Source of the DNA: Limnoperna fortunei
Lineage: Eukaryota > Mollusca > Bivalvia > Mytilida > Modiolidae
Length of the DNA stretch: 64,000 nt
Direction of reading: 5' to 3'
Assembly: GCA_944474755.1 (NCBI GenBank)
Contig: OX104124.1
Span: 7,032,437 to 7,096,436, forward strand
The position numbers and the translations under genes are program-made. Positions 35,046-58,272 of the stretch are shown one piece after another (within the stretch, counting starts at the first letter, position 1; each line of letters opens with the position of its first letter). The notes below the pieces were generated by a model. That model did no database searches, had not been told where the DNA came from, and was given only the letters and a program-made list of their open reading frames with translations.

Positions 35046-37337
35046 TTATACATTGTCCTGATGGTCTGAAGAATATAATAAGTAGTTTTTAATATTTGTC
35101 TTGAATACATTGGTGCTAATAGATTCACGCACTGAAGGTGGTAAGTTATTCCATAGCAAAGGGGCTGAATATACAAAAGATTTTTTGAATTGTTCAGTTT
35201 TTGGTTTAGGGACATTGAGATTACCTTTTAAGGCATTTCTTAGAGCATATGGGTTCGTTTCAGAAATATATGAAAATCTTTTATTGAGGTAATCTGGAGC
35301 CTCATTTTTTAAGCATTTGAAAGTAAGTAGACATTTGTGATATTTAATTCTTTCTTCAATTTTCATCCAGCCAAGATATTTAAATAAAGGTTCTGAAGGT
35401 GTTAATTAATCAGCATCCATAATAAGTCGTGCTGCTCTTTTTTGCAGTTTTAAAATTCTGTTTAGTCCTTCATTATTACAGCTGCCCCATATTATACAAC
35501 AGTAATCTATTAGGGGTAGAATATATCCATTGTAAAATAATTTTCTTAATTCAAGATTTAAATATTGTTTGATTTTTGAAAGAAGATAAATTCTAGATGA
35601 AATTGTGGAACAGACTACGTCTACCTGACTGGACCAATTTAGATGTTGGTCTACTTTGATTCCTAATAATTTTTCACATGTCGAATTTTGTAGTTTATTG
35701 GAAGAAATTGTAAGGCAAAGTTCATTCTCTTGTGAGGAAAGTTTTTGTCTAGTTCCAATTATCATACATTTTGTTTTATTTGAATTTATGAACATGTTAT
35801 TTTCATGACACCATTGTTCTACACAATTTAAATCTTGTTGTATTTTAACCTGTAGCTCTTTGATATTTGAGCCTGATGTGTGTATAGTGGAATCATCAGC
35901 GTACATGTCAGTTTGACAATTTTTAATATATAAAGGGAGATCATTTATATATATTATGAATAAAAGAGGACCTAGTATAGAACCCTGAGGTACACCAAAA
36001 TTTATTGGAAGTTGATCTGATTTGGTATTTCCAATTTGGACTTGCTGTGTTCTGCCATGAAGATATGATTTGAAAAGTGCAATACTATTTTTATCAAACC
36101 CATATATTTTCAATTTACTACATAAAATTTCATGATCAACAACATCAAATGCTTTTTGAAAATCTAAAAGAACAGCCAGATTTATGTTTCCATTATTGAT
36201 TTCTTGAAGCCATTTGTCAATAATGTTTATAAGGGCAGTTTGACACGAATGATTTGGTCTGAAACCAGATTGGGCAGGGTGTAAGAGATTGAATTTTATT
36301 AAAAATTTATATAAATGCTGTGATAAATGCTTTTCTATCAGCTTAGTCAATGTAGGCAACACTGAGATAGGTCTATAGTTTGAGGCTAAAAATCTCTCAC
36401 CAGTTTTAAAAACTGGTGTTACTTTGGCATTCTTTAAAATTTTAGGATAGGTACCCGTATCGATTATTCTATTAAAAATATATGTTAAGGATGTGGCAAT
36501 TATTTGGGCACTTATTTTAAGTATTCTTGGTCCAATGTTATCAGTTCCAGGGGACTTGTTAGCATCTAATTTTGTTATTTCATTGTAAATTGTATTTACT
36601 TCAACTGGAGGAATTGAGAATGTTTTGCTAATTGGGAGTCTCATTTTTACAAAGTTGCTTAATTGATGGAAGTTAGTACACATATCTTTATTTAAAGTAT
36701 TTGTTTCATTTTTAAGGTTTTGAACACAGGAAGTAAAAAAATTATTAAAAGTATCTGCTATTTCTTTTGGATCTGTTATTTTTTGGTCATTGTCGTTCAG
36801 AAGTTCATTTGGTTTTACAGGGTTTGATGGATTAAGACTGTGAAGACATTTCCATAAAATTTTAGGGTCTTTAGAATCTTTAATGATTTTACTGTAATAT
36901 TGTTTCTTAGAATCATCCAATATTTGTTTTGTTTTATTTCTCCAAAATTTATATTCATCCCATAACCCTAATCTGTTGCATTTGTCTCTCATTTGTCTTG
37001 CATGCATTATGTCACTGTTGTACCAGTCAGGTTGTCTTTCTACCTTGACACGCTTAGATAAAATTGGGGCATGTTTATTTATGACTGCATTAAAAATATT
37101 GTACCAGATTTCCATAGCTAACGATGGGTCATCTTGTTGTTCAACAAAATGAAAAGGGGCATTTGACAAGTCATAAAGAAATTCATCTTCACTGAAATTC
37201 TTAAAATTTCTATAGGAGATTGTAGTATGAGTGTGTTTTCTATTAAGGATTTTCTCTTGTCTTGTTAAACATACCGGATAATGATCACTTAGGGAATATT
37301 GGACAACATGTGATTCTTGGATCATGTATCGCTCCAT
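35046..37337 (-). pseudogene. LINE pol: endonuclease end, reverse transcriptase, C-terminal region
   Basis: This would encode the LINE polyprotein that nicks the target and reverse-transcribes the element RNA. The visible protein starts with the last endonuclease motif (SDHYPVCLTR); the rest of that domain is lost by truncation. The reverse transcriptase follows, with LLDFQKAFD, GVPQGSILGPLLF and the catalytic MYADD (about 35,892-35,906). The conserved C-terminal region (LPLIDYCCIIWG, KLQKRAARLIMDAD) runs into an in-frame TAA at 35,406-35,408. The same frame continues without further stops (LTPSEPLFKYLGW, then KIEERIKYHKCLLTFKCL) to its natural end at 35,046. Only one stop interrupts about 750 codons, so the copy is fairly young. 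It is assigned to the Jockey/CR1-type LINEs on motif style; the exact clade is unresolved. Confidence 0.9.
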
Positions 37338-39943: not shown

Positions 39944-42132
39944 ATGTCTCAGTTACCGGTAAGTAACATTAAAAAAATCATAAAACCAATAAAATCCATA
40001 GTTTTCCCAAGTGACCTCATTACCACTTTCCCAAAAAATTAGATTTATGAACTAATTTCCATGTCTTCTCTCCCCAGTCAACTTCCTTAGTGTCGTCTGA
40101 TAGTTTTACTACATAGATCACGTGACCCCTGTCATAAAAAAAAAGTACGGAACACCGAAATAACAAAAACCGATGTTTATTTTTTTATCTTAAATGAAAA
40201 ACATAACCGAAATAAGAAAAATTTTGAAATTTACTAATAAGAAACACTATTTATTTTACAGTAATAATATTAATAAATATAAATTTATAAAATCAAAATT
40301 AAATCTACATCTAGATGTAGATGTAGATTTAATTTTGATTTTATAAATTTTTTTGTAAATTTTTTTTTACAGTAATAATATTAATAAATATAAATTTATA
40401 AAATCAAAATAAAATCAAATAAATAATGGGCTTAAATTTTGAAATAAAACAAATAATGAAATTTTATTATTTTTCATTTTAGGATTTTGAAAAGCAGAAG
40501 CGACTACAATACAATAGAGCCAACCTTCAAAGGGCCTATGATGCAGTAATGTCAGAAGGAATGTCTGTCTACAAGGCTTCCAGGGTATTCAATGTGCCAA
40601 CACAAACCCTTAGAGACAGAGTCAATGGAAAAGTAGCTTTGGATTCCAAAGTGGGGCATGACACTATTTTTACCTATGAGGAAGAGGAAGCATTGGTACA
40701 TCATATAAAGTATATGGCAGAAATAGGGTATGGATATACCAGAACAAGCATACAACGCATGGCAAGGGAATATGCTACATCTCTCCATAAACCGTCGCAA
40801 ACCAAGCAGCAAGGCACTGTTCAGCTAAGTAATAATTGGTTCTATGGATTTTTAGATAGATGGTCAGATTTGAAATTAGCAAAACCACAGAAGCTTTCTT
40901 GGGCTAGAGCCCAAAATGCATCCCAAGAAAAAATTAAAAATTACTTTAAAGAGCTTTCGACAATAATAACTAAAAATGACTTATCAGAAAAACCACACAG
41001 AATCTACAATATTGATGAAACTGGCATAGCAACAGACCACTCTCCACCAAAGATTGTATGTGCCAAAGGAGCAAATCCTCAGTCGGTAACGTCTAATAGG
41101 TCATCCACTGTCACAATTATTGCTGGAGGCAATGCTGTTGGAAATTTTATACCCCCATTTTATGTTTTCCCAGGTAAAAGATGGAATCCAGACTTACTGA
41201 GTGGAGCACTTCAGGGTTCCTCTGGTCAGATGAGTGAAAGTGGCTGGTCTAATGGAGCTATATTTGAAAATTATATAACCACTCATTTTGCAATCAATGC
41301 TGGTATAACTGACCAAGCAAATCAAGTACCATTGCTAATTTTATTTGATGGACATCGTTCCCATATCAGTTTAACTTTGACCAACTGGGCAAAACAGCGT
41401 AATGTGATATTATTTGTCCTTCCTCCTCATAGCAGCCACCTTACCCAACCGTTAGATGTTGGTGTTTTTGGACCATTAAAAAACATATACAACAGAGAAT
41501 GTGCAGTTTATCTGCAGACACATCCTGGCTGTAGCATTACCAAATATGATATTGCTGCACTAACCAGTAGGCCATACCTTAAAGCTATGTGTCCAGAAAA
41601 TTTAATTTCAGCTTTTAAAAAGACTGGGGTATTTCCTGTAAATTCAAAGGCAATCACTACTGAGAAAACCGCTCTTTCAACAATATATGCAGCTAAAGTA
41701 AACAGTACACCTGGAAAGGAACCTGATGTAAATAAACCTGCTACTTGTCAGGAGAATGACCATAACTCTGCTACAACTTCTGAAGTCCATCAGATTGACA
41801 ACTCTATGTTAGAGGAACCATCAAACTTCTTAAACAAACAGCCTGAGAATGTCCAACAACCTGCTGATAATAGGCCAGCCAGTTTCTTTAATGCAAGAAC
41901 AATCACATCAGTACCGGAGAAGAAAACTAAACGAAAATTTGTACCTCCTTACCTTGCAGGAAACTTGTCTAAAAAGTCCAACATGGAAATACTAGAGTCT
42001 ACAAACAGCAAGAAACCAAAACCTGAGATCACTAGTTCAATCAAACCAACAAAGAGTAAAAACAAACCAGTCACTGCTTCTAACAAAGTTACAAAAGAAA
42101 CACACAGTGGGAAAAAATCGACCAGTACATAA
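39944..42132 (+). CDS. pogo/Tigger-like DDE transposase (two exons)
   Basis: The enzyme would cut and rejoin transposon ends in the nucleus. Exon 1 (39,944-39,958) encodes MSQLP and ends at a strong donor (CCG then GTAAGT); exon 2 starts at 40,483 after a T-rich tract ending TTTTAG, in phase 0, giving MSQLPDFEKQKR. The downstream ATG at 40,549 would be residue 28. The N-terminal part has a pipsqueak-type helix-turn-helix (SVYKASRVFNVPTQTLRDRV), then a CENP-B/Tc5-like DNA-binding region ending in NNWFYGFLDRW. The DDE_1 core keeps all three acids: NIDETGI (D codon 41,014), LFDGHRSH (41,347) and QPLDVGVFG (41,455), with 35 residues between the second and third. The C-terminal third is lysine-, serine- and asparagine-rich. 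The frame stops at TAA 42,130-42,132, upstream of an in-frame zinc finger. It is probably a defective or very recent copy. Confidence 0.9.
39959..40482 (+). other. Intron of the transposase gene, with a 70-bp palindrome
   Basis: This 524-nt intron is bounded by GTAAGT and TTTTAG. It holds a near-perfect palindrome at 40,281-40,350 (31-bp arms, 8-base loop TAGATGTA) and a direct repeat of about 45 bp starting TTTTACAGTAATAATATT at about 40,256 and 40,366. The second TTTTTTTTTACAG also looks like a splice acceptor (about 40,371), but the TTTTAG at 40,482 gives the better protein. Confidence 0.75.
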
Positions 42133-42426: not shown

Positions 42427-42907
42427 AATATAAAGCATCCATACCTGAATTTACCTGTAAATATGTTAACTTTACGTTTGTTAAACTGTTTCTTGGAGTT
42501 TTCTGGATGTTTTTATCAAGTTTGTGTTTCCAGCTGTTATAGTGTTATTTCTTACAAAACAGTACCAAACATGTATATTTTTAATGCGTACTGCGCTCCA
42601 TACTTCGATTTGATGACGTAGCACGATACAATGGAACTCTCCTATTTCTACTAGAATGAAACATGCCGAACTTCAACGGAAGTTTGTGAACGATTCCAAA
42701 AGAGATATTTATTAATTTCTATATAAGTGAAAAGGTTGAATGCTGAAGTAAATGTCATAACAAAGAAAACACGAAAGGTAAGTGAGTTGAATGTTTTTTA
42801 TTACAGAAAAATTAAGTAGCACGATACAATGAGACACCGGGCTGTACATTGTATAAAGATAGCTAGGATTTAGGCATATCAGCAATACCCCTTACTGTCC
42901 CTAATAT

Positions 42908-42969
42908 CATCTTCGCTAGCCAAGTGTTACGATCAGGTCCCCCCTCTCTTCACCCTTGGCAGATCTAGA
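42908..42969 (+). repeat. Left terminal inverted repeat of the two-gene element
   Basis: This 62-bp repeat matches the complement of 48,152-48,212 except in the middle (about 42,925-42,945). It contains its own inner palindrome, GCCAAG near the start against CACCCTTGGC near the end, so each terminus can fold. It is preceded directly by CCCTAATAT. Confidence 0.9.
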
Positions 42970-43095
42970 TGAGTTTTTTGTAATTCCCGCCAACGCCACC
43001 TTACGGATTCACAAGTTGCGTCCCTTTATATTACATCATAATCTGCCAATCAGAATAAGGCTTGTATATCGGTTTGGTGTCATTTTTGAAGTAAA

Positions 43096-43347
43096 ATGGC
43101 AGCGCCCAGCTTCGAGAAAGCTTGTGAATTTCTAGCCGCGCTAGAAATCAGGTTACATCAATGTAGGCAATTTTACAACGAAAATCTGTTTTTTGTTGGT
43201 ACCACGCGAAGCTGAAAATCACTAGCGGATAGTTCGAATTTGTCGTTGGTAGACCAAGAGCTTGTTACATGTTGGCGACGACAAGTGGAGATTGATATTG
43301 AAGTCAAGCGTCTACCAGGAGAAATTAAAATTGATTCCTATAGATGA
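43096..43347 (+). pseudogene. Candidate first exon of the element's plus-strand gene
   Basis: A good-context ATG (GTAAAATGGCAGCG) opens a frame beginning MAAPSFEKACEFLAALEIRL and continuing FYNENLFFVGTTRS. It is interrupted by TGA at 43,213-43,215, then continues in the same frame (KSLADSSNLSLVDQELVTC, then VEIDIEVKRLPGEIKIDSYR) to a stop at 43,345. A splice-donor-like CAGTG then GTAAGC lies about 20 bp further on. I do not recognise a domain. Its place just inside the left terminus and upstream of the helicase fragment suggests a 5' exon of the same gene; the helicase Walker A and DEAH exons that should follow are not visible. Confidence 0.4.
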
Positions 43348-43674
43348 GACACACACAGTTCAGTGGTAAGCAACATTAATAATTTATTTCTTCGTTTATT
43401 CATTGATATTTTATGACTTTTCGTTCGTTTACTAGTGTCATTACACATAAGCTGTGTTATTTTCGCTGCAGGACGATTCATCCCATAATAAGTAAAACGG
43501 ACCACGGAAAATATATAATAGTGAATACAGATATTGTCATATCAACAAATAATTATTTATATAAAAATAATATAATAGAAAAATAATTAATGCATTAAAA
43601 TTAATAAGGAAACATTATTACAAATTATTAAAACTTTTACAATGAAGATTCATTATACACTACTAATTAATATA

Positions 43675-44092
43675 GATTGATTGATTGATTGGATGGCTGC
43701 TTTACGTCCAGCGAGCAGTATTTCAGCTATATTCAGGACAGGAACAAACAATAAATCAACAGAAAATGGGGGTTGGATGGGTCACAGGGAATAAAATTTT
43801 GACTGCCACTGGAAAAGTATGGAGTTTTGGGAAGGGGCGGAAAATATAGCCTTTTGTAGCCGCTACAATGAGCCTACTCTTTTTCAAAATCTACAAAAGG
43901 GGTCTTTATCGTGCAAGGAGCGTGGCACTCTCCAAACACGTTACCCACTACGGTCTGTGGTGGTCAGGCTTTCCGTATTATGACCTGACAACCCCCAAAC
44001 GAGAGGGTCTCCCCTATCCACCACCCGGGGATGCGCTGGGCTGCTCTGTGGGTCAAGCACTGGGAACCCTCCCAGTATGGTCCCAGAATTAA
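43675..44092 (+). repeat. Dispersed repeat starting with GATT units (SINE-sized)
   Basis: It begins with five GATT units, then GGATGGCTGCTTTACGTCC and a body of about 400 bp ending near CCCTCCCAGTATGGTCCC. Relatives occur at 54,908-55,160 (GATT run, then CAGCAGTATTTC, ACCTACTCTTTTTC, CACTACGAACTGGTCA) and as a short piece at 31,090-31,140. A 74-codon frame at 43,868 is part of the repeat, not a gene. It lies inside the helicase gene of the two-gene element, in the place of missing exons. Confidence 0.7.
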
Positions 44093-44319
44093 TATCGAAG
44101 GTTGTCAATTGCAACGATATATGGTCGAGCTATTCAGAAGACACAATGACAGCTGTACATGTATGTCTAACAAATGTTTTAAAGTTTTTTTAATTAAGGG
44201 TTTATTGTTGTCTTATTAATACTGGTATGTACTTGCAATTGACTATGTCGACTTTGTTGTTATGTGGCATGTCATTAAAAAATTAAAATTCTCTACACTG
44301 CCTTTTCCAATAAAACCTG

Positions 44320-44365
44320 GATGCCATGATAGTGTTGAACACCATTAAAGCAAACAAACAAAATA
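44320..44365 (+). repeat. SINE-like tail fragment
   Basis: GTTGAACACCATTAAAG followed by CAAACAAACAAA matches the 3' tail of the SINE family in the window. Little else of a SINE remains upstream. Confidence 0.4.
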
Positions 44366-44492
44366 ACTGATAATCTACTTCATTAACCAACTGTGGGAGG
44401 GTATTTCAGGTAAAACAGTGTAATGTTAAAGTGCCAAATAACATGATAGTTAATATATACTTGGAACTAATATAATTTTAACAATTTTGCAG

Positions 44493-45622
44493 GGGTGAAC
44501 AAAGTAAGAATGATGACCCATTTAGAGAATGGTTTTCAAGGTTAGAACTAAGGTCTCCTTGTCCTAACCTTCCATTGGCTGCATTAACAGCTATTTCTGG
44601 ACCCAGTGAAAGAAGAAAAAATATGAAAAGGTGTTGCTTAGCTGCAAGAGCAGAAGTAGTACTGGAGTCTTGGGACACACCAACATCAAAATATCCACTG
44701 TTTCCAATCCAAACAAAGATAATCTTGAACATGTGTTTGAATGTGTAATAAACAGCATAAAAACAAAACACTTATGTATGCGATTTTCTGTACAACTATA
44801 TATACAGATGTACATGTAGCAAAACTGTACCTGAATGATGTTTGTAAAATTATTGGGAATCGGTTGTGAACATTTTCAAATGTTCCACAGCAAACCAAAT
44901 GAAAAAGGGAAAGAAAAAATATGTCACGACATGACCATGGATGACAAGATTCTCATCTGATATGCACAAATTCAGCAGTAATGGGAGTGAATTTCTAGGG
45001 TGTTCACAATATCGTACTGTGAATAACCCAGGGAAATGGATACAATTGCACAGAAATTAGGTAGAGCCGGCAGAGATGGAACACTTTTTGATGAACTTGT
45101 TTTAATATAACACGAAGGACATATGAAGAAAGTAGAGTGTGACAATGTGAAAACACCAGCTTTTGTGTTCTAGTTATATGACTAAACCTACTTCTATTGC
45201 ACCTTTGCACAATTGTTGTGATGTTTGCGACAAAAAATGCCCTTGTCATGCTTGTGGAGAGGAGACATGTCCAAGAACACATGTTGCTGCTGTGGCGACT
45301 CAACAGGATTCTGATTCTTCTAATGAAGAAAGTATGAACAGATTTACTTATCCAGGGAGTCTAGAACATTCTCGAAAGAAGCTCGAGTCATTTAAAAGTT
45401 CATGGACCGAATATAAACTGGAGCATTACTTCACCATGAAGTCCTTCAATGATTTACTGATACAGTAATATCAATATTGCACGAAGATGTGAAATATTAT
45501 TTACACCAGATGAAGTTATGAGAAACTTTCATATGAATATATGCCAAATAAAATGCATTGTTTTTGAAGATACTGAAATGTACAACATGTCGGATAGTGA
45601 TTGTAACACCTCATCTTATTAA
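44493..45622 (+). pseudogene. RecQ-like SF2 DNA helicase, 3' part, degenerate
   Basis: RecQ helicases unwind DNA with ATP. After an acceptor (TTTTGCAG, 44,485-44,492) the frame reads GEQSKNDDPFREWFSRLELR, then LAALTAISGPSERR (motif III region) and VVLESWDTP. A frameshift near 44,670 leads to TVSNPNKDNLEHVFECVINS. Further on, in shifted and stop-broken frames, come FHSKPNEKGKEKICHDM, MGVNF-stop-GVHN (motif V) and QKLGRAGRDG (motif VI, about 45,052-45,081). The RecQ zinc-binding part is clear: SIAPLHNCCDVCDKKCPC (from about 45,188), then a serine/acid-rich stretch and MNRFTYPGSLEHSRKK. One more shift reaches RRCEIIFTPDEVMRNFH and the natural end at TAA 45,620. Walker A and DEAH parts are absent. 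At least two frameshifts and several stops make it non-functional. RecQ assignment is firm; its link to the transposon rests on position. Confidence 0.85.
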
Positions 45623-45937
45623 AGTGTCAAAACTGACATGTCATTTCTATAATTACTATGGTTAATGTATATTTTGCCAATATAATATAAATTTTAAGGT
45701 AAAAGTTGTGTTGTTCCTCTCCAAAAAGTATATTGTTGCCTTTATTTATATTAACATATATCAGCATGAAGCCAGGATGTTGCATGCTTGCAATACAATC
45801 TACCAAAATTTATCATCTTCCTATTTCACGCGGATGATTTAATACATGTTCTAGCTGCCATATCTTTACATGTTGTGTGCAGTAGTTAAAATAAAAACTT
45901 CACAGAAAATCATTGTAACATCTTAACTAATTTCTCC
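45623..45937. other. Non-coding stretch between convergent gene relics
   Basis: AT-rich sequence between the end of the helicase relic and a SINE fragment; nothing recognised. Confidence 0.5.
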
Positions 45938-46030
45938 AGGTATTAGGGCTTCCTGCCCTGATAAAAAATGGACGATATGGCAAAAAATTGCTGAAAGTGG
46001 CATTAAACACCATTTACAAAAACATAAATT
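45938..46030 (+). repeat. SINE 3' fragment
   Basis: GGCTTCCTGCCCTGATAAAA, GGACGATATGGC and AAAATTGCTGAAAGTGGC then CATTAAACACC match the body and tail of the SINE family; the tRNA head is missing. Confidence 0.7.
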
Positions 46031-46436
46031 AAGTGGTGCATGGAATTCATTCAAGTGTGATAAAGTTGTTACAGGTTAGGGTCCAAGGTTGCCAGTTGTC
46101 TCTAAGCACTACAGCTTTTTTAACCAATAAAATTACTATTGGTCACCACGAAACAACAAATATTGTGGAAAGTGATGATCAATGCTAACAACCAATCAAT
46201 CAATATCATACAGGTAGCAACCAATAAAAAAAGTACACAAATGTAAGAAGTACTAATGTAAGACAATAACAAACAGGTTTCACATGGATTATGATCTTTT
46301 ATGTGACAGTACAGTATTACAAATGTGGTGAAATATATTTTACACTGATACATACAAGTCGCTCCTTGTTTTATATGATCCATTTATAAAGATTGTCTAT
46401 CTGTATACATGACACATTTTGGAAACCGTATTCACG

Positions 46437-46580
46437 ACCAGGTTTATAATATACTATTGATCACATGGTCTGTCAAAAATGAGGATGCGGGTCGAGTCTC
46501 ACTGCAGGCAGGGTGCACTTGACTAATCTTAATTCTCCAAAAAACAAAATCGGAACGCTATGATATAGCTGAAAAAAGTT
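46437..46580 (+). repeat. SINE head-and-body fragment inserted in the DUF6589-like gene
   Basis: It contains ATTGATCACATGGTCTGTCA, a box-B-like GCGGGTCGAGTCTCAC and GGGTGCACTTGACTAATC, ending GATATAGCTGAAAAA. It sits exactly where the minus-strand coding sequence of the zinc-finger gene ends, so it likely contributed to its loss. Confidence 0.75.
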
Positions 46581-47705
46581 TATTATTCCTTGGACTAGAA
46601 GTTCAACCAGATTGTCATTGGGAATGTTATGGCAGTGCCTCCATGAAGGTTTGTGCAACAAATCCATTTACATTCAGAACCTTTCTTTGGCAATAAAAGT
46701 GAAATACAGTATGCTATGAAACCAAACAACCATAACTTTTATTTTGTGCGATTACCAAGGCGGAACATTTGAAATTTAGCATTGCATAATATTCTGTCCA
46801 CATCTCCCATTTTACAGGCATCATATGTATCACTCAGCAGACATGCACATTTCATTAACTATGCTATGTACAAGGCAATTTTATATTGGATTTTGAGCTA
46901 AATGGTTCATTAATGTCTAGATCCTCCAATGATCCTTCCTGAGTTGTCTTTTTAATTCACCAGTTGTCTTTTATTTTTTGGTGCAAACTTCACAAATATA
47001 TTTGTTTTCCAGATTGTCAAACATTATTCTTTTTTTTATATGTTTGGTCATCAAGGGCTGATGTTCTTTATGAAATCTTGGATACCTCTGTAAAAAAAAG
47101 AATGCATTTCTAAGTACACAATACTTCAGCTTAGGAGGATGGTACTTTCCTTTACATTTGACGACACGACAATGTTCACTCTACTTCAATCCCTTTTGGT
47201 GTGAATGAAGTGCACTTATTTTAACTGCCTTTGCCCTTTTCGATGGTAATTTGTAGTAGACACTGCATGCAAACTACAAGCTAGTTTTGTCCACATCCAG
47301 AATTTAATCAATAATACATTAAGTTCAGTCAACTGTTGTGATGTTGATAACACTAGTACCCAACCACCCCCCCCCCTTTTTCTGATATATTTATCAAATG
47401 TTAAATGCCTAAAGGAATGTATCCATATGACCAATGATGTTTTTTTTTTTAAATATAAAATATTATTACCTTAACATTATCTGGCAAAAACTAATTCACA
47501 CAAATTCTTTTACTTTTCAATACATTTTTAGAATCCATAGCAGATATGTAGTTACTGACGCTATTTGCCTTTCTTGGACTTATAGTTGTTGATATCTTCG
47601 TTTTTCTAGCTGTTGGCGAATGCAATATTTTGTGCTCTGCAGTTCTCGTCGGGGTCGTTACTTCTGGGCTAATTGCTGCGTCTGGTTGACATTTTCATCG
47701 GACAT
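46575..47705 (-). pseudogene. Zinc-finger protein with DUF6589-like region, degenerate
   Basis: This minus-strand gene starts just inside the right terminus. A start at 47,705 gives MSDENVNQ, then a frameshift to a serine/threonine/proline-rich stretch (PDAAISPEVTTPTRTAEHKI, later ARKTKISTTISPRKANSVSN). One TAG follows before a donor at 47,469-47,468 (AAG then GTAATA). A second exon begins at 47,087 after a TTTTTTTTACAG acceptor. It holds a C2H2 finger, YICEVCTKK-stop-KTTGELKRQLRKDH, in which the first histidine is glutamine. Then come DTYDACKMGDVDRILCNAKF, FRLGNRTK, a tryptophan/phenylalanine-rich helix, a HGG motif and NIPNDNLVELLVQ, in shifting frames. The order (GD..R, K..L, HGG.G.NIP.D) recalls DUF6589-type proteins of invertebrate and fungal elements. 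That match is from memory and moderate. At least three frame breaks are present and the 3' part is lost at a SINE. Confidence 0.6.
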
Positions 47706-48151
47706 TTCAGTAGGCGCCACAGAGAAACGCTGGCGGAGCGTACACATTGTTGACTTGTGAATTTTTATCTAAGCAAACTTATCAGTTCATATTTCTCCTT
47801 TTTAGTATGCTTCTTCGATGTATCATATGCGATCTTCGAAAGCATGGAAAGTATGTTACAAAAACCGCAAACAAGTACGTCATATAAATCCCATCAACAC
47901 GGGTGCGGTATGTAAGCCAGAATTTCACATAACTTATTAAAAACACATAAGGTGTTGACAAAAATCGTACGACTGTCCTTCTTAGGTAGAATTTTTTATG
48001 TATCATTGTACAATTATACGCAATCGATCGTCGCCATGATTTGTTTACTTTCTTAAGCGTACACGTGTTTTTTGTTAAACACACTCTGATTGGTGCAGTT
48101 GTTGGTTCCTGCATCCAATCAAAACCGTTCCTGTGTGACACCGAAATACCG

Positions 48152-48212
48152 TCTAGATCTGCCAAGGGTGAAGATAAGAGTATCGGTTCGTAACCCTTGG
48201 CTAGCGAAGATG
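48152..48212 (-). repeat. Right terminal inverted repeat of the two-gene element
   Basis: It reads inward as CATCTTCGCTAGCCAAG, GGTTACGAACC, then TCTTCACCCTTGGCAG and ATCTAGA, matching the left repeat. CCCTAATAT follows immediately at 48,213-48,221 as the second target-site copy. Confidence 0.9.
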
Positions 48213-48221
48213 CCCTAATAT

Positions 48222-57481: not shown

Positions 57482-58272
57482 TTAACGTATGGACGACCTT
57501 AACTTAACGTATGGGCGACCTTAACTTAAAGTATAGACGACCTTAACTTACCGTATGTACGACCTTAACTTTACGTATGTACGACCTTAACTTAACATAT
57601 GTACGACCTTAACTTAACGTATGTGCGACCTTAACCTAAAGTATAGACGACCTTAACTTAACGTATGTACGACCTTAACTTTACGTATGTACGACCTTAA
57701 CTTAACGTATGTACGACCTTAACGTATGTACGACCTTAACTTAACGTATGTACGACCTTAACTTAACGTATGTACGACCTTAACTTTACGTATGTACGAC
57801 CTTAACTTAACGTATATACGACCTTAACTTTACGTATGTACGACCTTAACTTAACATATGTACGACCTTAACTTAACGTATGTGCGACCTTAACTTAAAG
57901 TATAGACGACCTTAACTTAACGTATGTACGACCTTAACTTTACGTATGTACGACCTTAACTTAACGTATGTACGACCTTAACTTAACGTATGTACGACCT
58001 TAACTTAACGTATGTACGACCTTAACTTAACGTATGTACGACCTTAACTTAACGTATGTACGACCTTAACTTAACGTATGTACGACCTTAACTTAACGTA
58101 TGTACGACCTTAACTTTACGTATGTACGACCTTAACTTAACGTATATACGACCTTAACTTTACGTATGTACGACCTTAACTTAACGTATGTACGACCTTA
58201 ACTTTACGTATGTACGACCTTAACTTTACGTATGTACGACCTTAACTTAACATATGTACGACCTTGACTTGA
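57482..58272 (+). repeat. 22-bp minisatellite (about 36 units)
   Basis: The unit is AACGTATGTACGACCTTAAC plus TT. Variants include AAAGTATAGACG, AACATATGTACG, TTTACGTATG and GTATGTGCG, and one 16-bp short unit near 57,720. An ordered set of variants is repeated with an offset of about 259 bp (for example AACATATG at about 57,595 and 57,854), so this array also has higher-order structure. Confidence 0.95.

Follow-up and report, generated by a model that had tools for sequence, protein, structure and literature searches.

A 5,305-bp DNA transposon of Limnoperna fortunei, probably a non-autonomous AcademH element, with remnants of RecQ-type helicase and DUF6589 genes

Introduction

Academ DNA transposons comprise lineages that differ in their accessory enzyme and in the length of their target site duplication. 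In the relevant passage of PMC10045372, the duplication is 9 or 10 bp long in AcademH elements and 3 or 4 bp long in AcademX elements, a difference related there to the encoding of a helicase versus a nuclease. Helicase_C and DEAD are named in an excerpt of PMC10799480 among the domains that derive from AcademH, KolobokH or Helitron, and a bivalve-specific amplification of Academ, with 100 curated elements of a mean length of 5,565 bp, is described in part of PMC10294476. Kolobok transposons have a TTAA duplication; a RecQ helicase is present in KolobokH, from fungi, and, on the complementary strand, in one Kolobok of rhodophytes (excerpt of PMC9587614). Here we analyse a 64,000-nt stretch of the bivalve Limnoperna fortunei (assembly GCA_944474755.1, contig OX104124.1, positions 7,032,437 to 7,096,436 of the forward strand), called the window throughout. 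It contains a DNA transposon of 5,305 bp with a 9-bp duplication and two broken genes, one for a RecQ-type helicase and one for a DUF6589/C2H2 protein, and the element is likely a non-autonomous member of AcademH within Academ.

AcademH fits each feature tested. Duplications are exactly 9 bp in 17 of 20 pairs of ends of the window's family and measure 9, 9, 10 and 9 bp in its relatives; the helicase is represented by PF00270 and PF00271 in the relatives and by a remnant in the window; terminal inverted repeats bound the window element and the relatives alike. Membership in AcademH is likely on this comparison, which was made against published descriptions of the lineage.

Results

Ends of the element and their recurrence in the genome

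The element occupies positions 42908-48212 of the window (42899-48221 with its duplications), and both copies of CCCTAATAT directly adjoin the inverted repeats, which differ by one nucleotide in length:

42899..42907, no strand: left target site duplication copy, CCCTAATAT, 9 bp
42908..42969, plus strand: left terminal inverted repeat, 62 nt, aligned with the right repeat
48152..48212, minus strand: right terminal inverted repeat, 61 nt, aligned with the left repeat
48213..48221, no strand: right target site duplication copy, CCCTAATAT, 9 bp

A search of the 1.34-Gb genome with 42908-42969, which the original prediction had proposed, returned at least 40 strong matches to the left end (among 1019 candidates) as well as a further match at 84%, and at least 40 were likewise found for the right end (of 832 candidates); both counts include the window and, like all copy numbers of the family ends, are lower bounds. 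The ends of the family are of the CATCTTCGCTAGC type. Among the 39 other left ends, 20 begin exactly at the base corresponding to 42908, 6 are at most one base off and 13 extend 2-7 bases outward. The window's right end matches the left ends of the copies at 85.5%.

Pairing of the left and right lists, in which only the flanks were read, yielded 17 pairs; together with the window, L043 and L044 these account for 20 of the 40 left ends. The remaining 20 comprise ends with no right end listed within reach, a candidate pair 27 kb apart and a complex cluster at C5:77.48 Mb, the last two having been excluded. An exact 9-bp direct repeat flanks 17 of the 20 paired copies and an 8-bp repeat one; two show no repeat at the border, and in one of these two the matching nine bases are shifted outward by 5 positions. 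Mispaired flanks, used as a control, agreed with at most one mismatch in 0 of 272 comparisons. The borders and the 9-bp duplication that had been predicted from the window are thus borne out by the genome-wide recurrence of the ends. In the empty-site search, the joined flanks of the window insertion match a dispersed repeat, the matches reaching about 5-15 bases beyond the junction at best. L043, a second full-length copy, is 99.6% identical to the window element over 5,306 columns and has its own duplication, AAGAGTACC, hence the subfamily has moved recently.

In the excluded cluster (L005-L007, G000:C5:77.48 Mb), three left ends of the family fall within a span of 1.4 kb. Two of them share both orientation and outer flank and the third is reversed, so that the cluster is rearranged or nested.

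Remnants of two convergent genes

Three plus-strand pieces inside the element match the helicase of its relatives in the same order, and the DUF6589/C2H2 remnants lie on the minus strand, convergent with them:

44482..44745, plus strand: helicase remnant, initial portion of the C-terminal half (weak, with E 0.36 when taken by itself; colinear with the following pieces)
44871..45116, plus strand: helicase remnant, Helicase_C part with GRAGRDG (frameshifted, with stops)
44996..44998, plus strand: helicase stop codon 1 (common to 8 of 8 copies examined)
45024..45026, plus strand: helicase stop codon 2 (common to 8 of 8 copies examined)
45151..45465, plus strand: helicase remnant, RecQ-type zinc-binding segment, HNCCDVC... 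(E 8e-7)
46619..46879, minus strand: C-terminal remnant of the DUF6589 transposase-like protein (E 0.0043; 10.0 bits)
46929..47015, minus strand: C2H2 zinc-finger remnant of the DUF6589 protein (weak; joint E 0.03 with 46604-46882)

Two helicase segments scored 20.0 and 19.7 bits, against 5.6 bits for the best of 200 randomised elements made by first-order Markov resampling; the DUF6589 remnant scored 10.0 bits, against 6.3 bits for the best of the same controls. The helicase signal of the window is strong; its own DUF6589 signal is short and weak, and the better-preserved relatives carry the argument. Pfam scans of seven single open reading frames of the window matched neither domain, and the window's helicase reading frame had no match among solved structures. 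The original prediction had read these remnants as a RecQ-like helicase and a C2H2/DUF6589 protein in convergent order. The helicase, the second protein and the gene order are all supported, the second protein by way of the relatives.

Better-preserved relatives in the same genome

There are 108 matches to the DUF6589 family in the genome, and single genes often account for several of them. Two related families have both genes far better preserved, again convergent and within 9-10-bp duplications, in line with the earlier expectation that other elements would have both genes and borders of this kind. In the first of these (L041 and L042, 99.5% identical, 6.6 kb) the inverted repeats of 111-112 bp are perfect and the duplications, TAGTATGCA and GGAATAACT, are 9 bp each. 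One gene encodes DUF6589 with a C2H2 finger, the other, convergent, a helicase with the Pfam domains DEAD (PF00270) and Helicase_C (PF00271), whose closest solved structures are RecQ, WRN and BLM. The closest named relatives of L041 are mollusc proteins (Mytilus galloprovincialis, 58%). L041 is embedded in tandem repeats of a 27-bp unit; the 19-mer across its joined site occurs 69 times in the flanks, from which it follows that the duplication arose on insertion. This minisatellite is itself open in several frames on both strands.

The other of the two families (L039 and L040, about 10 kb, inverted repeats of about 103 bp) has duplications of 10 and 9 bp if its ends are CAATC...GATTG, the border being uncertain by 1-2 bases. 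A short repeat within the window element, 43686-43738, is also present in L039 and L040 (53 bp, 87%) and is perhaps another mobile element.

At two further loci, L047 and L049, both of which exist in a second and nearly identical copy, DUF6589 is on one strand and a helicase with an HNCCDNC segment on the other; element ends were looked for in L047/L048 and L049/L050 and were not found. A helicase reading frame was detected within the sequence examined at 14 of 30 DUF6589 loci, on the opposite strand in all 14. The profile used for this count comprised five proteins of the families L041/L042, L039, L047 and L049, so that many of the 14 matches come from copies in these very families; the more independent ones are L012, L020/L023/L033 and L030. 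The other 16 loci end about 1.5 kb past the DUF6589 match, and the absence of a helicase there means little.

DUF6589 as the predicted transposase

The DUF6589 protein is predicted to be the transposase of the element because the D/D/E triad is kept in nearly every row of its alignment and because Hermes, the P-element, ISCth4, Transib and RAG1 give the best alignments to its predicted structure. Foldseek alone was not significant for this predicted structure, and the DUF6589 profile gave 137 rows at E ≤10 against solved structures, the best 60 of which are mainly C2H2 fingers with no transposase among them. In ten proteins of relatives and homologues there was no Pfam domain of the Mutator-like element (MULE) type, leaving DUF6589 as the sole transposase candidate. 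The C/DxxH signature, between the second D and the E, is not conserved, with at most 5 of 23 rows having it at one column. The earlier suggestion that the transposase is to be sought in one of these proteins gains support, the DUF6589 protein being the predicted one. It may follow that a family annotated only as DUF6589 provides a widespread group of animal transposons with its catalytic subunit, and many 'uncharacterized' proteins could be renamed transposases.

Shared stop codons and movement in trans

The helicase core was read in eight copies of the subfamily (the window, L043-L046 and L058-L060), with core identities of 86 to 99% relative to the window. Both helicase stops are found in all eight, beside the same conserved residues, so the subfamily likely spread in trans with the enzymes of another element; the helicase was likely already dead in the ancestor of the copies. 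The donor of the enzymes was not seen, and the L041 and L039 families have different terminal sequences. The alternative, in which the genes broke after each insertion and nothing was mobilised in trans, has in its favour the private frameshifts that copies also show. The window and L043 have a frameshift between the two stops, and L059 has one just ahead of them. We nevertheless hold this course of events to be quite improbable, since both stops recur in every copy though the cores differ by up to about 14% from that of the window, and one ancestral dead gene fits better than repeated identical mutations. That an element spread with a helicase probably dead since its ancestor makes the need for a helicase in cis testable.

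Surroundings in the window

The first 31 kb of the window (1-31046) consist of a 36-bp minisatellite with about 874 copies (95% matches), which may extend leftward and in parts has open frames of 300-526 codons. An open frame of 643 aa on the minus strand (35406-37337) has a reverse transcriptase domain (4.8e-35). Another, of 549 aa on the plus strand (40483-42132), 0.8 kb left of the element, has DDE_1, HTH_psq and HTH_Tnp_Tc5 domains and is a pogo/Tigger-like transposase. At 57482-58270 a 22-bp unit is repeated in tandem about 36 times.

Discussion

The original prediction took the element for a candidate undescribed superfamily and set Academ aside on account of 3-4-bp duplications. The first point is not supported and the second loses its ground, as AcademH is said to have both a helicase and 9- or 10-bp duplications (excerpt of PMC10045372). 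AcademX was rejected: the duplications here are exactly 9 bp in 17 of 20 pairs, not 3 or 4 bp, and an XPG-type nuclease is not in the element. XPG_I was found at five places in the genome, none of them in the window element or the relatives read; the one place inspected, L055, looks like an asteroid-type host gene. A further search for an XPG link gave none among the 7995 candidates sharing most words.

The broadest alternative would make DUF6589 the unnamed DDE domain of a large two-gene group, found in molluscs, hemichordates, cnidarians and sea urchins, that forms a superfamily beside Academ and in which copies with dead genes, though they span thousands of bases, move in trans. We regard it as unlikely, and give slightly less credence still to the narrower proposal that the DUF6589 and RecQ elements are a DDE superfamily of their own, only resembling AcademH in helicase and 9-10-bp duplications. 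Such a separation would agree with the missing XPG link, the standing of DUF6589 in Pfam, where it is PF20231, as a family of unknown function and the failure to find its name in the literature searched. It has to contend with AcademH itself, which already combines a helicase with 9-10-bp duplications and, in the 2020 paper of Kojima, is reportedly treated from animals and fungi, as the title has it. Academ is, moreover, common in bivalves at a similar length (part of PMC10294476).

MULEs and Kolobok are further removed. The window element shares its 9-bp duplications and long inverted repeats with the MULEs, of which both are typical, and might be a MULE (MuDR) that acquired a helicase; with neither a MULE-type domain in the ten proteins nor a conserved C/DxxH, this is very improbable. 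Least credible of all is KolobokH, which does carry a RecQ helicase (as does, on the complementary strand, the one rhodophyte Kolobok) but has TTAA duplications where 17 of 20 pairs here have 9 bp of differing sequence, is described from fungi only in the excerpt of PMC9587614 and belongs with a C/DxxH signature that DUF6589 does not conserve; the earlier exclusion of Kolobok by its TTAA duplication stands.

With AcademH as the preferred assignment, the following mechanism may be envisaged. The DUF6589 protein of the better-preserved relatives would be a DDE transposase with an insertion, helical and zinc-finger in nature, that splits its RNase H-like fold. Once bound to the inverted repeats, this transposase would excise the element and insert it at a target whose strands are offset by 9 bp (in some cases 10), and repair of the gaps would then produce the duplication. 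The convergent RecQ helicase might assist in unwinding or repairing either the ends or the target.

Among the known systems, RAG-like transposons, Transib, hAT (Hermes) and the P element are those that the predicted model of DUF6589 matches best in structure, and RAG-like elements are also reported to have two convergent genes. All of these differ in the accessory gene, and the best 60 of the 137 sequence matches to solved structures include no transposase; hAT and P differ further in that C/DxxH is not conserved in DUF6589. KolobokH shares a RecQ helicase and a DDD/E transposase and differs in its TTAA duplication, its C/DxxH superfamily signature and its occurrence, given as fungi only (excerpt of PMC9587614). 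AcademX, the other Academ lineage in the passage of PMC10045372, encodes a nuclease, not a helicase, and makes 3- or 4-bp duplications. AcademH has the helicase gene and the 9- or 10-bp duplications, as far as that passage describes it, and by the title of its paper is found in animals; it differs in no tested feature, the window copy being one with dead genes.
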